Assembly: GCA_023475265.1 (NCBI GenBank)
Contig: JAMCWE010000185.1
Span: 1-37,489, forward strand
Direction: 5' to 3'
DNA length: 37,489 nt
Origin: Bacteroidota bacterium
Lineage (GTDB): Bacteria; Bacteroidota; Ignavibacteria; Ignavibacteriales; Ignavibacteriaceae
Below, in pieces: positions 29,944-35,919 of this stretch (positions are counted from its first letter, which is position 1; each line of letters begins with the position of its first letter). The notes under the pieces are model-generated. The model was not told the origin of the DNA, ran no database searches, and saw nothing but the letters and a program-made list of their open reading frames with translations. The position numbers and the translations under genes are program-made.

Positions 29944-30918
29944 ATGAATAATCGTTTATATAAATTGTCTAAGGTGAAAGTTCAAAATGTTCAAGCAGCG
30001 GATGTTAAATATGTTGTTGAAAGCGCATATAAGATTGCTTTGAATTATTTGAAACAAGCCTATATACGTTATCAGAAATTAATTTTGCACAACGATCTTC
30101 AATTAGAAGATATCGCGATCGATTCTATTGCGCCTCTATTTATAAAAAATGATTCGGATCAATTTTATGTGCTTATAAATGCATACAACAATTGGAGCCC
30201 GCCGATTCAAACCGAAGAAGAAGCATTCTTTTTTCTAAATAAGATTGTTGCATCACGAATTGAACAGCATGTAACTGTTTTGTTAAGAGAATCTGATCCG
30301 GTATTTGGTAAAATATTGGATTCGGTAAATTACATTATTAAAAAAGAAGGGTGTAAGAAAATAAATTATTTGGGAATTATTTATGCCGTAAGAAATAATT
30401 GTAAAAAAATTTACGGAAGAGTAATCGATCAGGAGGAATTCGAAAATTTGCCTTCTCATTTATTTATGAATAAGAAAAATGTTTTTAATAATCTTTCTAA
30501 TCATATCGAAAATGAATTGGGATATTTTCCTGCAATACCAATCTTTTCATTTATGAAACAATTAAAGCATATTACATTATCCGAATATCAAAAAATGTAT
30601 CATGAAGAATTTTTTTATGATCAAATTGAAATAGAAGAATTTGTAAATATCGGGCTAAACAAAGCACAAGAAAAATTAGAAAATTTTTATTTAAAGAATA
30701 AGAAGCTGTCGGTTGTAGAGTTTAAATATTTTTCTAAAGCATTATCTGATATGGCAGCAGATTTAAAAAACGGCGGAATAAAACATGGGCTATTCGATTA
30801 TCTAAATATTTATTTTCCTACGCTTTCAAGAAAAAAATATAATTTAAAGTATCGCGATATTTTGGAATATGAATTGAAGATAATGAAGAAATCTATTATT
30901 GCTTCTCTTAACGCATAA
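29944..30918 (+). CDS. Hypothetical protein, all-helical
   Basis: I do not recognise this 324-residue protein. It is predicted from composition to be mostly helical, cytoplasmic and basic, with no signal peptide or membrane segment. The N-terminal half has a layout faintly like sigma-factor region 2: a helix ending LHNDLQLEDIAIDSIAPLF, then EEEAFFFLNKIVASRIEQHV. The C-terminal half contains LNKAQEKLENFYLKNKKLS, which could hold a further helical domain. A good Shine-Dalgarno (GAGGG) supports the start. It stands alone between dnaG and the ferredoxin gene. A regulatory or nucleic-acid role is only a guess. Confidence 0.8.
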   Translation: MNNRLYKLSKVKVQNVQAADVKYVVESAYKIALNYLKQAYIRYQKLILHNDLQLEDIAIDSIAPLFIKNDSDQFYVLINAYNNWSPPIQTEEEAFFFLNKIVASRIEQHVTVLLRESDPVFGKILDSVNYIIKKEGCKKINYLGIIYAVRNNCKKIYGRVIDQEEFENLPSHLFMNKKNVFNNLSNHIENELGYFPAIPIFSFMKQLKHITLSEYQKMYHEEFFYDQIEIEEFVNIGLNKAQEKLENFYLKNKKLSVVEFKYFSKALSDMAADLKNGGIKHGLFDYLNIYFPTLSRKKYNLKYRDILEYELKIMKKSIIASLNA

Positions 30919-31338: not shown

Positions 31339-31722
31339 ATGAATTCAGATTTTAAAGAATTAACGGTTTATAAAAAAGCATTTACATTAGCTATGCAAGC
31401 ATTTAACATAACAAAGAACTTTCCCAAGGAAGAAAAATATTCTTTGACCGGACAAATTCGGAGATCATCCCGATCGGTTTGTAGCAACGTTGCCGAAGGT
31501 TATAGGAAAAGACTTTATGAAGCTCACTTTATTTCTAAGATTTCCGATGCTGATATGGAAAACAGTGAAACGCAAGTATGGTTGGATTTTTCATTGGCTT
31601 GTGATTATATAACTCATGATATTTATTCTCAAATGTGCAATCAATCTCAAGAGATTGGTAAATTATTAAATCACATGATAGAATTTCCTGAGAAGTATTT
31701 GAGAAAATCAGATAAAAATTGA
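31339..31722 (+). CDS. Four-helix-bundle protein (S23 / rRNA-intervening-sequence family)
   Basis: The 127-residue protein has the family pattern: FKELTVYKKAFTLAMQAF at the start, GQIRRSSRSVCSNVAEGY in the middle and a SDADMENSETQVWLDFSLAC segment. The family is named after ORFs in intervening sequences of 23S rRNA genes, but most copies are scattered in genomes and have no known function; a homopentameric bundle has been described. It has a good ribosome site (GAAGGGA) before the ATG. It sits between the ferredoxin and reductase genes, and imperfect inverted repeats flank it (31274-31286 and 31719-31731, 11 of 13), suggesting that it arrived as a unit. Confidence 0.92.
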   Translation: MNSDFKELTVYKKAFTLAMQAFNITKNFPKEEKYSLTGQIRRSSRSVCSNVAEGYRKRLYEAHFISKISDADMENSETQVWLDFSLACDYITHDIYSQMCNQSQEIGKLLNHMIEFPEKYLRKSDKN

Positions 31723-31787: not shown

Positions 31788-32954
31788 ATGAAAATTGAAT
31801 ACGATATAATTGTTGTTGGCGCCGGACCTGCAGGTTCGATGGCAGCGCGCTTTGCCGCTGAAAAAGGTGTCTCAGTTCTAATGCTTGAAAAAGACAGAGA
31901 TGTTGGATATCCCGTTCGTTGCGGTGAAGCGATAAGTAAAGCAGGCGTTGAAGAATTTATTTCTTCAGATGAAAAATGGATCACTGCACACATAAACAAA
32001 TTTTCTTTAAACTCTCCTGATGGTTCCGAAGCAGTTGTTGAATTTAACGATGCCGGCTATGTTCTTGAAAGAAGAATATTTGATTATGAGCTTGCAAAAA
32101 CTGCTGCTAATGCAGGTGCTGAAATTTTAACTCGAGCTTATGTTAATGGTTTGTTAATTGAAAACGATAAAGTATGCGGTGTAAAATATGAGTATCGTGG
32201 TGAGCAAAAAGAACTAAAGGCAAAAATTGTAATTGGAGCCGATGGAGTTGAATCCAGAATTGGAAGATGGGCAGGATTAAAAACTCATATTCATTTTAAA
32301 GACATGGAATGCTGCGCTCAGGTAACAGCCTCAAACATTAAAATTGATTCCGATACATTGTATTTTTATTTTGGTCAGCAATATGCACCTGGAGGTTATT
32401 TTTGGGTTTTTCCAAAAGGAAAAAATATTGCCAACATTGGATTAGGCGTGAGCGGAATGGTTGGGAAAAAGAGATCCGCGCTATCTTACCTTAATAACTT
32501 CATGGACAATAATTATCCAGCCGCACCTGTGCTCACTTCAATTGCAGGCGGTGTTCCAAGTACAGTTACATTGAAAAAAATTTCGTCGCCGGGTATAATG
32601 CTTGTCGGCGATGCAGCACGACAAGTTAATCCTCTCAGTGGCGGCGGAATTGCTTCCGGTATGATTGGCGGAAGCATTGCAGGAAGAATAGCTGGTGAAG
32701 CTGTTAAGATGAATAAGCTTGATCATATTTTAACTTATGATAAAGCGTGGCACGAAAGACTTGGAAAGCGTCATGAAACTTTCGAGAGAATAAAAAACGG
32801 AATCTATAATTTTAGTGATGAAAAGTTTAACAAGATTTCACATTCATTCAACAAGATTCCGAAAGATAAAAGAACTCTCGGCAGACTTTTTACAACGGCT
32901 TTAATTAATCAGCCTTCACTGCTTGTCGATATTGCAAAAGTTTTTGTCATTTAA
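31788..32954 (+). CDS. Geranylgeranyl reductase-family FAD-dependent oxidoreductase
   Basis: The 388-residue flavoprotein hydrogenates double bonds of isoprenoid chains in known relatives. The FAD-binding Rossmann motif GAGPAGSMAARFAAEKG is near 11-27. The second FAD motif IMLVGDAARQVNPLSGGG (about 267-284) includes the conserved GD. The substrate-site signature YFWVFPKGKNIANIGLG matches the YxWxFPKG hallmark of the family. Acceptors could be menaquinone side chains, polyprenyl lipids or carotenoid/chlorophyll precursors; the sequence does not decide. The 14-base gap to hemH suggests cotranscription with ferrochelatase, and the ferredoxin upstream is a plausible electron source. Confidence 0.9.
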   Translation: MKIEYDIIVVGAGPAGSMAARFAAEKGVSVLMLEKDRDVGYPVRCGEAISKAGVEEFISSDEKWITAHINKFSLNSPDGSEAVVEFNDAGYVLERRIFDYELAKTAANAGAEILTRAYVNGLLIENDKVCGVKYEYRGEQKELKAKIVIGADGVESRIGRWAGLKTHIHFKDMECCAQVTASNIKIDSDTLYFYFGQQYAPGGYFWVFPKGKNIANIGLGVSGMVGKKRSALSYLNNFMDNNYPAAPVLTSIAGGVPSTVTLKKISSPGIMLVGDAARQVNPLSGGGIASGMIGGSIAGRIAGEAVKMNKLDHILTYDKAWHERLGKRHETFERIKNGIYNFSDEKFNKISHSFNKIPKDKRTLGRLFTTALINQPSLLVDIAKVFVI

Positions 32955-32968
32955 TTATCTGAAAATTT

Positions 32969-33985
32969 ATGAATTCAAAAACCGGCGTATTGCTTGTTAA
33001 TTTAGGAACCCCTGACAGCCCATCCGTTTCCAATGTTAGAAAATATTTATTTGAATTTCTTAACGATCCGCGAGTGATAGACTTGCCATGGCTGCTTAGA
33101 AAATTTTTAGTGAATATAATTATAGTCCCGTTCCGTGCGACAAAGTCTTCGAAAATTTATCAGCAGCTTTGGACAGATAAAGGTTCTCCGCTTTTAATTT
33201 ATGGTGAAAGCGTAAAAGAAAAATTGCAAACAGCGCTTGGAAATAATTTTGAGGTTGAACTTGCAATGAGATATCAAAATCCAAGCATGGATGATGTTCT
33301 TGAAAAAATGAGAATGAAGCAGCATCAAAAATTAATTGTCGTTCCGATGTTTCCGCAGTATGCCTCAGCAACAACCGGTTCAGTATTTGGAAAAGCAATG
33401 AAGATAATTAATAAGTGGTGGGTGATTCCGGAGATTAAATTTGTCGGACAATTTTATGAAGACGAAAATTTTATAAATTCATTTGCCGAAAGAGCGAAGA
33501 GATATAATTTAAAGGATTATGATCATGTTTTGTTCAGCTACCACGGTTTGCCGGTTAGGCAGGTTGATAAAGTTTATGTTGACGGTAAAAAGTGTTCCGA
33601 TCATAACTGTGAAAGCGAAATTAATGAAAATAACAAGTTTTGTTATAAAGCAGCCTGCTATGCAACCACAAGGCTTCTTGCTGCAAAGTTAAATCTTTCA
33701 AAAGAAAATTATACCGTGTGTTTTCAATCGCGGTTAAATAAAGACTGGCTTGAACCATTTACCGATAAAATAATAATTCAAAAGGCTAAAGAAGGCGCAA
33801 AGAAGCTGCTGGTATTTAGTCCGGCATTTGTCGCAGATTGTTTGGAAACAAATGTTGAAATTGGAATTGATTATCAAAAATTATTTAAAGAACACGGCGG
33901 AGATAAAATTCAATTGGTTGAAAGTTTGAATGATCATCCGATGTGGATTGAAGCATTGAAAAATATAATATTAAAAAATGCTTGA
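32969..33985 (+). CDS. hemH: Ferrochelatase
   Basis: Inserts iron into porphyrin in haem synthesis. The 338-residue protein shows LLVNLGTPDSP at 8-18, VVPMFPQYASATTGS at 124-138, the metal-binding His192 in SYHGLPVRQ, and the acidic partner Glu293 in ADCLETNVEIG. An internal insert carries four cysteines, Cys209, 214, 225 and 230, just after the His192 loop. Several bacterial ferrochelatases bind a [2Fe-2S] cluster through an internal cysteine set, so this one may too. It follows the reductase gene with a 14-base gap. The haem made here would serve the haem-barrel protein at 4856 and respiration. No coproporphyrinogen-specific pattern was looked for. Confidence 0.97.
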   Translation: MNSKTGVLLVNLGTPDSPSVSNVRKYLFEFLNDPRVIDLPWLLRKFLVNIIIVPFRATKSSKIYQQLWTDKGSPLLIYGESVKEKLQTALGNNFEVELAMRYQNPSMDDVLEKMRMKQHQKLIVVPMFPQYASATTGSVFGKAMKIINKWWVIPEIKFVGQFYEDENFINSFAERAKRYNLKDYDHVLFSYHGLPVRQVDKVYVDGKKCSDHNCESEINENNKFCYKAACYATTRLLAAKLNLSKENYTVCFQSRLNKDWLEPFTDKIIIQKAKEGAKKLLVFSPAFVADCLETNVEIGIDYQKLFKEHGGDKIQLVESLNDHPMWIEALKNIILKNA

Positions 33986-34041: not shown

Positions 34042-35355
34042 ATGTCTCTATCAGAAAAAATATTTGAAGCGGGAGTAGTCGGCGCAGGCGGAGCGGGTTT
34101 TCCAACACATGTTAAAGCCTCATCAAAAACGGAAATTGTTTTGGCAAACGGCGCTGAGTGCGAGCCGCTCATTCATAAAGATTACGAATTGATGATAAAC
34201 TCTCCGGAAAAAGTTGTAAGAGGAATGGAACTAGTGATTGAATCTACTTCAGCACGAAAAGGTTACTTCGGAATCAAATCAAAAAATGCAAAAGCAATTG
34301 AAGAAATAAAAAAACATTTTTCAAACGGGAAAATTGAAATTACTGAACTTGGCGATTTTTATCCTTCCGGAGATGAATATGAGCTTGTTTATTCGGCAAC
34401 GAAAAGATTAATTCCTCCTGCCGGAATTCCTCTTGATGTTGGCTGTGTCGTAAACAATGTTGAAACTTTTTTTAACGTTGCAAATTCCGAAGAGGGAATT
34501 CCAGTAACAGAAAAATTTGTTTGTATTACAGGTGCAGTAAAAAAACCATCATCTTTTTTTGCACCAATTGGAATTTCGTTCCGCGAACTAATTGCTCATG
34601 CCGGAGGAACGAATGTGAAAGACTTCGGAATTTTTGTCGGCGGTGTAATGATGGGCAATTTAACTTTTGATCTTGATGAAGTTGTTACTAAAACAACAAC
34701 CGGATTGATTATTCTTCCTAAAGAACATTACTTGATCAAAAGAAAAAACCAACCCGAACAAAATTGGCATCGCATCGGGAAATCAGCTTGCGATCAATGC
34801 AGCTATTGCACTGAATTTTGTCCGCGTTATTTGCTTGGTTACGAAGTTCAACCGCACAAAGTAATGAGGTCGTTGGGCTTTACCAAAACCGGCGCCAACG
34901 TTTGGAATCAAATGGCGGAGCTTTGCTGCAGCTGCGGTTTGTGTACACTTTATGCATGTCCCGAAGATCTCTATCCGAAAGAAGCCTGCGATAAAGCAAA
35001 AAAAGAAATGAAGGCAGAAGGAGTTAAATTCGTTCAAACAAAGCCGGTGAAAGTTCACACGATAAAGGAGGGAAGAAGAGTTCCGCTGAAACAATTAATC
35101 AACAGATTAAGGCTTCAAGATTATGATGTTCACACACCGTTCAATAAAAATATACCGGAAACATCGAGCGTAAAAATTTTATTGAAGCAGCACATTGGCG
35201 AACCGGCAATTCCATTGGTAAAAATCGGAGAAAAGGTAAAGAAGAATGATTTGATCGGAGAAGTTCCAACAGGGAAACTTGGTGCAAATGTTCATTCTTC
35301 AATCAGCGGGATGGTTTCACAAGTTACAAAAGATTATATAAGAATTAATAAATAG
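34042..35355 (+). CDS. PduS/RnfC-like flavo-iron-sulphur protein (SLBB domain)
   Basis: The 437-residue protein has an RnfC-type core. The NADH/FMN-site block GVVGAGGAGFPTHVK is at 11-25 and GAECEPLI at 37-44. An SLBB-type segment (ITGAVKKPSSFFAPIG) lies near 162. Two [4Fe-4S] motifs follow, Cys250/253/256/260 and Cys295/298/301/306. The C-terminal HIGEPAIPLVKIGEKVKKND block is a biotinyl/lipoyl-like hammerhead fold. Length and order match PduS, the cobalamin reductase of propanediol microcompartments (about 450 residues). RnfC is less likely because no other rnf genes adjoin it. A BMC-domain gene follows after nine bases, giving the PduS-PduT order. Confidence 0.88.
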   Translation: MSLSEKIFEAGVVGAGGAGFPTHVKASSKTEIVLANGAECEPLIHKDYELMINSPEKVVRGMELVIESTSARKGYFGIKSKNAKAIEEIKKHFSNGKIEITELGDFYPSGDEYELVYSATKRLIPPAGIPLDVGCVVNNVETFFNVANSEEGIPVTEKFVCITGAVKKPSSFFAPIGISFRELIAHAGGTNVKDFGIFVGGVMMGNLTFDLDEVVTKTTTGLIILPKEHYLIKRKNQPEQNWHRIGKSACDQCSYCTEFCPRYLLGYEVQPHKVMRSLGFTKTGANVWNQMAELCCSCGLCTLYACPEDLYPKEACDKAKKEMKAEGVKFVQTKPVKVHTIKEGRRVPLKQLINRLRLQDYDVHTPFNKNIPETSSVKILLKQHIGEPAIPLVKIGEKVKKNDLIGEVPTGKLGANVHSSISGMVSQVTKDYIRINK

Positions 35356-35364
35356 GAATTTAAA

Positions 35365-35919
35365 ATGATCGAAATGAATTCAATCGGTTTAATTGAAATG
35401 GGAAGCATCGCTTCCGGGATGCAAGCCGCCGACATTATGCTCAAAACTTCTGAGGTAGAATTAATTTTATCGCGTACAATTTGTTCGGGTAAATATATGA
35501 CACTAATTGGCGGTGAAGTTGCCGCTGTAAATTCGGCTGTCAACAACGCAGTTGATACAATCGGATTTGGAGTGATCGATTATTTTGTAATTCCTAATGT
35601 GCACAAATCTATTTTCCCGGCAATTTCCGGGCACAACAATGTTGAAATGCTTGAAGCTCTCGGAATAGTTGAATCTTATTCTGTCGCATCTTTGATTGAA
35701 GGAGCCGATGCTGCAGTTAAATCAGCAAATGTAAAATTAATTGAAGTACGTTTGGCGATGGCTCTCGGAGGAAAAGCTTTCTTTACAGTAACCGGAGAGG
35801 TTGCAGCCGTTTCAAGCGCTGTAGATGCCGGTGCAAAGGTTGTCGGTGATAAAGGTTTGTTAGTTAATAAAGTTGTAATTGCAAATCCGCGGCGGGAACT
35901 TTTATCTGAGATGATCTAA
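35365..35919 (+). CDS. Tandem BMC-domain shell protein, PduT-like
   Basis: The 184-residue protein contains two BMC (bacterial microcompartment) domains, about 6-92 (SIGLIEMGSIASGMQAADIM) and 95-183 (ALGIVESYSVASLIEGADA). These tandem proteins form pseudohexameric trimers. The first domain carries Cys40 in SRTICSGKY, at the place where PduT has the pore cysteine that binds a [4Fe-4S] cluster across the trimer. A cluster could therefore pass electrons through the shell to or from the PduS-like partner. No other shell or enzyme gene of a compartment is in the window. The stop overlaps that of the convergent DUF2156 gene. Confidence 0.93.
   Translation: MIEMNSIGLIEMGSIASGMQAADIMLKTSEVELILSRTICSGKYMTLIGGEVAAVNSAVNNAVDTIGFGVIDYFVIPNVHKSIFPAISGHNNVEMLEALGIVESYSVASLIEGADAAVKSANVKLIEVRLAMALGGKAFFTVTGEVAAVSSAVDAGAKVVGDKGLLVNKVVIANPRRELLSEMI

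Follow-up and report, generated by a model that had tools for sequence, protein, structure and literature searches.

We analyzed a stretch of 37,489 nucleotides from a Bacteroidota bacterium of the family Ignavibacteriaceae (order Ignavibacteriales). This stretch, which we will call the window, covers positions 1 to 37,489 of contig C113 (JAMCWE010000185.1) of assembly GCA_023475265.1, which contains 4.77 Mb in 270 contigs and is estimated to be 96.8% complete. Near the end of the window are two genes that resemble pduS and pduT. A reading of the sequence by itself (the original prediction) described them as an orphan electron-transfer pair, which might serve a bacterial microcompartment (BMC) encoded elsewhere in the genome or might have a redox role without a compartment. 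The two genes are:

34042..35355, + strand: PduS-like flavo-iron-sulfur protein (S), a putative NADH oxidizer of 437 amino acids, identified by its Pfam domains, its cysteine motifs, and its identity to PduS
35365..35919, + strand: PduT-like tandem BMC shell protein (BMC-T; T) of 184 amino acids, with Cys40 in the pore, identified by two matches to PF00936

The genes are on the same strand with a gap of 9 bp, and their coordinates, domains, and cysteine motifs are as originally predicted. From the N terminus, the domains of S are PF01512 (Complex1_51K), PF10531 (SLBB), PF13534 (Fer4_17), and PF13375 (RnfC_N); the same four domains are given for PduS in a passage of PMC6325248. Residues 14-19 of S form a GxGxxG motif, and its two cysteine motifs are C250xxC253xxC256xxxC260 and C295xxC298xxC301xxxxC306. 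S is 38% identical to the annotated PduS of Salmonella across 96% of the query. S does not reach the cutoff of any equivalog model in NCBIfam, and the nearest model is for a subfamily (rnfC, 242.1 vs. a cutoff of 245.95). T has two tandem BMC domains (PF00936, E = 1e-43), and its nearest chains in the PDB are 3nwg, 3pac, and 3n79. As for the predicted pore cysteine, Cys40 of T falls opposite the cysteine of SKTICPGK in the alignment to 3pac_A. T scores below the curated cutoff for TIGR02526 (eut_PduT, 109.9 vs. 250.3 bits), so we describe it as PduT-like rather than as an equivalog.

We compared the genome that contains the window (G000) to 58 relatives, for a total of 59 genomes. Using a threshold of at least 60% identity to S, 38 of the 59 genomes have the window's type of PduS, and from these 38 genomes we examined 31 S-T loci in detail. 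S and T are on one strand in all 31 loci, and both of the cysteine motifs of PduS are kept in all 31. The pore-cysteine motif is present in all 29 of the full-length T proteins (the other two are cut by contig ends). The conservation of the strand, the motifs, and the pore cysteine across these loci rules out chance. In one relative, the pduS gene is split in two pieces by an in-frame stop codon (G056:C1:2894346-2895649), and both T domains of that genome are free of stops.

The pair is also found beyond the order. We used an alignment of PduS to scan named genomes, and we considered the best 80 of at least 576 loci, with flanks of up to 10 kb on each side (33 of the 80 have approximately the full 10 kb). 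The titles of these 80 include Ignavibacteria (such as Stygiobacter electus and Melioribacter), Acidobacteria (such as Bryobacterales), Armatimonadetes, and others. In 72 of the 80 loci, T is no more than 4 kb from S. Six of the other 8 loci are at contig ends and the remaining two have room for T. Those two loci, L259 and L283, are titled as Acidobacteria and have PduS with no T found within 10 kb downstream. Among the 80, genes for the other two types of shell proteins, the hexamers (BMC-H) or the vertex proteins (BMC-P), were found near S only in L285, L289, and L298. Within these flanks, a full BMC operon surrounds the pair in just 2 of the 80, namely L289 (1149-12510) and L298 (296-11263), from Desulfuromusa and a deltaproteobacterium. 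By eye, these are ethanolamine-like operons that include close relatives of the S-T pair. For the window's clade of PduS in Ignavibacteria, we found no full BMC operon beside the pair, the arrangement that the original prediction had named as a refutation.

Although the pair is alone in its locus, as originally predicted, it is not an orphan in its genome. As the original prediction had proposed, we searched the whole assembly for more shell genes. The only PF00936 domains that we found were the two of T, and we found three BMC-P genes (PF03319) on two contigs other than C113. Two of these are on C261, directly after deoB (which scores above its model cutoffs), and the third is on C61, before a dprA-like gene. 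Given these other shell genes in the same assembly, we rejected the idea of a true orphan pair.

Similar scattered shell genes are found in most of the relatives. (In what follows, the gene names der, FAD reductase, upp-like, rsh, yqgF, folD-like, methyltransferase-like, and aroA-like were assigned by eye.) PF00936 has a match in 54 of the 59 genomes, and 31 of the 59 have exactly four such domains, by a tally made by hand (in one of these, G012, the four are from a compact locus). In most of the genomes that we read, the typical set is a BMC-H gene of about 95 amino acids, a longer single-domain BMC gene that adjoins it, and the tandem T gene elsewhere. We read eight of the BMC-H loci, and seven of them have der, FAD reductase, upp-like, rsh, usually yqgF, and then the BMC pair. 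The second gene of this pair is BMC-H-like and encodes 198-301 amino acids in the eight loci, with a long C-terminal extension (for example, L071:10320-11084, L069:9241-9903, and L070:10237-11142). The G004 copy has EutM as its first NCBIfam match and EutK as another, with both scores below the cutoffs.

PF03319 has a match in 48 of the 59 genomes. After removing the copies in PVM-type loci by hand, BMC-P remains in 37 of the 38 genomes with the window's type of PduS, which, like the BMC-P genes of the window's own assembly, supports the option of a compartment whose genes are elsewhere in the genome. In all 23 of the deoB loci that we examined (a selection from the PF03319 matches), two BMC-P genes come after deoB on its strand, at a distance of 60-742 bp from it. 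In most of the 58 relatives, we see the same scattered set: the hexamer pair, two vertex genes with deoB, a single vertex gene by itself, and S-T. One of the named loci, L285 from a metagenome-assembled genome of Ignavibacteriae, has the hexamer pair about 3.4 kb from S-T, and this is a direct link between the pair and the dispersed shell. Two genomes have a run of three BMC-P genes in addition to the dispersed ones (G052:C97:4044-4865 and G055:C42:9538-10358).

Two enzymes are candidates for the cargo of the dispersed shell: DeoC, a deoxyribose-phosphate aldolase (DERA), and an aldehyde dehydrogenase (AldDH). The DeoC of the window's genome (on C38) matches TIGR00126 only from residue 67, where the catalytic domain begins, and it has an N-terminal extension of about 66 residues. 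The extension is conserved and contains a CxGWExNV stretch as well as a segment that resembles a helix (VSQVFLEKxLxDFY). Of 39 PDB sequences of solved DERA, none aligns before residue 56. DeoC could be read in 55 of the 59 genomes, and the other 4 had no match. The extension is present in 41 of the 55 genomes and is absent or unrecognizable in 14, which include G002 and G033 (with divergent DeoC only), G021 (fragments only), and G011 (a copy truncated by the end of its contig). All 41 genomes with the extension have BMC-P outside of PVM-type loci, as compared to 1 of the 14 without it (G023).

The original prediction also called for a search for aldehyde dehydrogenases. When we scanned 10 genomes with PF00171, one weakly matching group was present in all 7 genomes that have the dispersed shell and was absent from the 3 that do not. 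The window's genome has a member on C94, which scores 618.4 against TIGR02518 (the cutoff is 620.1) across residues 4-447; its tail is unmatched. Judging by its sequence, this AldDH is an acetylating acetaldehyde dehydrogenase. The tail has about 88 residues and ends, in all 30 of the orthologs that we read, in a GISEEEIQKIIKEF-type (GISEEEIxKIIxEF-type) helix or a close variant. AldDH is found in 39 of the 59 genomes. It accompanies the DeoC extension in 38 of 41 genomes and is absent from all 14 that lack the extension. The KTSTGF motif of DeoC is invariant in 27 alignment rows, and C250 of AldDH, in GTLCSSEQ, is invariant in 20; we take both motifs to be catalytic.

These genes are also linked on the chromosome. 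For two other families in the order, 14 of 19 genomes have deoC at a distance of 8-18 kb from the BMC-H pair, and 14 of 17 have AldDH at 14-30 kb from the third BMC-P gene (in the remaining genomes, the two genes fall on separate contigs). Within the family of the window, the link between deoC and BMC-H is loosened: the distances are 109, 416, and 655 kb in G020, G018, and G013, in which both genes are on one long contig. The immediate surroundings of deoC, in five loci (L144:6937-10935 and L145-L148), are a string of housekeeping genes, with deoC after folD-like and before methyltransferase-like and aroA-like. In L148, the string has one extra open reading frame and is otherwise conserved.

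We consider it likely that the pair is an electron-transfer satellite of a genome-dispersed compartment, of the type known as FRAG, that works on deoxyribose and is part of DNA catabolism. That the pair is a satellite is well supported, and deoxyribose-phosphate is a probable substrate. Deoxyribose-1-phosphate, from DNA or nucleosides, would be isomerized by DeoB. Encapsulated DeoC would convert deoxyribose-5-phosphate to glyceraldehyde-3-phosphate and acetaldehyde, and encapsulated AldDH would convert acetaldehyde and coenzyme A (CoA) to acetyl-CoA, which would yield NADH. By analogy to homologs, the electrons would then flow through PduS and PduT. On the lumenal side of the shell, PduS would oxidize the NADH by using FMN and two [4Fe-4S] clusters; PduT would export the electrons via a putative [4Fe-4S] cluster at its three-fold pore, and NAD+ would be restored inside. 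The genes, the cysteines, the extensions, the co-occurrence, and the linkage can be read directly in the genomes. We infer the encapsulation, the substrate, the direction of the electrons, and the acceptor in the cytosol.

More tentatively, the FRAG compartments of Ignavibacteria could be respiring metabolosomes for the sugars of nucleic acids, with the shell encoded at four or more sites, with DeoC and AldDH targeted to the interior, with no PduL, and perhaps with no alcohol dehydrogenase inside the shell. NAD+ might be regenerated by exporting electrons via PduS-PduT to the cytosol and then to the respiratory chain.

Several observations weigh against a deoxyribose compartment with the pair as its satellite. 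First, the PF00936 search of the assembly did not find BMC-H genes in the window's own genome. In relatives, the BMC-H pair usually lies next to yqgF, and searching the window's genome with the yqgF of G004 gave no match, although this empty result has little weight by itself. More broadly, when we compared the 11.5-kb BMC-H block of G004 to the window's genome (40 of 306 candidates were scored), we found just four short matches of 28-538 bp, and the best of these, 538 bp at 69%, is within der. S and AldDH are 91% identical between these two genomes. We rejected the loss of BMC-H because this conserved block of housekeeping genes is missing as well, while S and AldDH are so similar. Several genes of the missing block are expected to be essential, so a gap in the assembly is likelier than loss. 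The assembly probably lacks the BMC-H pair along with the housekeeping genes of its block.

Second, the components do not always occur together. Five relatives with shell genes lack the S-T pair (G005, G024, G025, G027, and G031), so the pair is not obligatory. Four genomes with BMC-P lack AldDH (G008, G014, G023, and G034). Conversely, G009 has the S-T pair (L080:9098-10974) without BMC-H, BMC-P, or AldDH, and its DeoC is unextended. The pair in G009 may be a relic, contamination, or an independent use.

Third, the DeoC extension does not stand out as a targeting helix. For three extended proteins, the hydrophobic moment of the N terminus was no better than for shuffled sequences (it was reached by 145, 362, and 295 of 1000 shuffles), and two unextended DeoC proteins stood out more (24 and 54 of 1000). 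For the tails of six AldDH proteins, between 0 and 108 of 1000 shuffles reached the hydrophobic moment. In the AlphaFold model of DeoC, confidence is low at the N terminus (the mean pLDDT is 73, and residues 1-30 are below 50). The model of AldDH is poor (the mean is 64, and residues 388-516 are below 50), with the last helix, residues 522-533, in blocks of 74 and 60. DERA-type aldolases were among the 50 matches listed by Foldseek for the DeoC model.

Fourth, on a tree of the DeoC core (with 5 of 56 rows left out as divergent or truncated), the extension requires three changes, with one supported independent pair, and the test is underpowered. Because there is just one independent pair, p-values from the contingency tables overstate the independence of these genomes, and independent replication is weak. 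Finally, PduL, a phosphotransacylase, had no match in 11 of the 12 genomes that we searched, which leaves the recycling of CoA unexplained.

We considered four other explanations for the pair. The dispersed compartment might act on another substrate, such as ethanolamine, ethanol, or another source of acetaldehyde. The AldDH family model specifies acetaldehyde but not where the acetaldehyde comes from, and L289 and L298, which among the best 80 named loci are the only full operons with close relatives of the S-T pair, are ethanolamine-like. In these operons, S is 56-57%, T is 66-67%, and AldDH is 45-46% identical to the proteins of the window's genome; the similarity of AldDH fits acetaldehyde as a common intermediate. 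However, the extension of DeoC, the adjacency of deoB to BMC-P genes, and the linkage of deoC to BMC-H all indicate deoxyribose, so we view another substrate as unlikely.

Somewhat less likely still is the other option in the original prediction, a free redox unit in which PduS oxidizes NADH and PduT is a trimeric iron-sulfur carrier, without any compartment. This could account for the absence of BMC-H from the window's assembly, for G009 (which is 99% complete and was the one relative with the pair and no other shell gene found), and for the 77 of the 80 named loci with no BMC-H or BMC-P found in the flanks. It is disfavored by the presence of BMC-P outside of PVM-type loci in all but one of the genomes with this PduS, and the housekeeping genes around BMC-H are missing from the assembly too. 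Also, G009 might be a relic or contamination (the contamination of this genome is estimated at 4%).

Another role for PduS, one that it has in Pdu compartments, would be to reduce cobalamin for an enzyme that depends on B12. The PduS of Citrobacter reduces cob(III)alamin and cob(II)alamin, according to passages of PMC2982820. But the cargo that we propose does not require B12, and by eye, we recognized no B12-dependent signature enzyme at the sites that we read in the window's genome (no genome-wide search was made), so this role is very improbable.

We give the least credence to a compact compartment of the fucose/rhamnose (PVM-like) type as the pair's home, and we rejected it because the window's genome has no match to the PVM-type AldDH (at E ≤ 1e-50) and because PVM-like loci have a distinct paralog of PduS. 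PVM-type AldDH loci do occur in 7 of the 59 genomes (G001, G003, G007, G011, G012, G046, and G056), in addition to the dispersed genes or in place of them, and passages of PMC4207490 describe PVM-like loci for Melioribacter roseus. In 5 of these 7 genomes, there is a further PduS that is just 41-43% identical to the window's and lies inside the compact locus where we read it (L076); G001 has both kinds of PduS side by side. We inspected the contents of two compact PVM-like loci, L076:5693-19765 (from G001) and L075:173-12554 (from G056), which exist beside the dispersed shell in the same genomes. By eye, they contain a class II aldolase, AldDH, and PduL-like, AckA-like, sugar-kinase-like, and regulator-like genes.

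Upstream of the pair, the window has two genes that the original prediction had mentioned as context:

32969..33985, + strand: hemH, ferrochelatase, upstream neighbor, judged incidental (PF00762; TIGR00109 above its cutoff)
31788..32954, + strand: flavoprotein of the geranylgeranyl reductase family, upstream neighbor, judged incidental (TIGR02032 above its cutoff)

These genes are where the original prediction placed them, but the context appears to be incidental. We rejected a link to heme synthesis because hemH is immediately upstream of S in just 5 of the 31 relatives' loci and is near S in 2 of the 80 named loci. Farther upstream are a protein of the 23S rRNA-intervening-sequence type (bAvd-like, 31339-31722) and an open reading frame of 324 amino acids with no match in Pfam or NCBIfam at E ≤ 0.001 (29944-30918). 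Overall, the interpretation in the original prediction is partly supported.

With these sequence-based candidates for the cargo, the function of an uncharacterized organelle becomes directly testable in cultured Ignavibacteria. PduS-PduT also gains a proposed role that is independent of B12, as an electron outlet, and lone shell genes should be interpreted at the scale of the whole genome.

Among known systems, the closest full operons with the S-T pair and a homologous AldDH are the EUT-like L289 and L298, from the best 80 of at least 576 named loci. Unlike the system described here, these are compact, with eutA, eutB, eutC, and eutL (by eye) and a match to PduL.

The PduS and PduT of Pdu compartments (Parsons et al. 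2010, PMC2982820) share with S and T, as far as passages of that paper and the sequences go, the set of domains, identical spacing in the cysteine motifs, a tandem BMC protein with a pore cysteine, and adjacent genes. The PduS of Citrobacter is described there as an NADH-dependent FMN enzyme with two coupled [4Fe-4S] centers that co-purifies with PduT, and the passage of electrons out of the compartment via PduS-PduT is proposed. In contrast, S is only 38% and T about 43% identical to the enteric proteins, and we recognized no Pdu operon or B12-dependent enzyme at the sites that we read.

Some genomes with HO compartments, as described in passages of Sutter et al. 2021, encode a distant pfam01791 aldolase with an N-terminal extension that resembles an encapsulation peptide (EP), which is reminiscent of the extended DeoC. 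On the other hand, the HO shell has a double-stacked BMC-T (BMC-Tdp), and neither a PduS-PduT satellite nor linkage to deoB is described in those passages.

The SPU type (PMC4207490; Sutter et al. 2021) combines a DeoC-type aldolase with an acetaldehyde-processing AldDH, and DNA catabolism has been proposed for it, in the parts of those papers that cover SPU. The SPU loci of Atribacteria include PduS (Axen 2014, PMC4207490). In our case the genes are scattered, and nearly all of the genomes that we searched lack a match to PduL. At the sites that we read, shell genes did not occur together with both pfam01791 and pfam02502 (RpiB), as they do in SPU loci, and RpiB was not searched for genome-wide. 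We do not file the system as SPU, but it may work like one.

The best fit is to FRAG (Sutter et al. 2021, PMC8217296), which, in the passages on this type, has shell genes at several sites, has three BMC-P, occurs in Ignavibacteriae, and has genes that are mostly remote from known enzymes. No function is assigned to FRAG in those passages, and the authors anticipate that a correlation with some environmental factor will uncover one. The window's genome has shell genes on C113, C261, and C61, with a further BMC-H site in relatives, and it has a triplet of BMC-P genes (matched by gene count). BMC-H is present in most relatives, and in the window's genome the BMC-H block is missing. Unlike the published FRAG, for which those passages give no signature enzyme or function and the main text does not contain the terms "PduS" or "PduT", here PduS-PduT is a satellite, and DeoC, AldDH, and deoB are tied to the shell. 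As far as the parts of these papers that we drew on show, the dispersed FRAG in Ignavibacteriae, SPU for the sugars of DNA, a possible function of PduS-PduT in letting electrons out, and the remote EP-like aldolase of HO are already in print. In the open-access literature (supplementary files and subscription papers were outside of the search), we found no paper that links FRAG or Ignavibacteria to DeoC or PduS-PduT. What is new, we propose, is a testable assignment of function for a dispersed compartment, with DeoC and AldDH as its cargo and PduS-PduT as its satellite.

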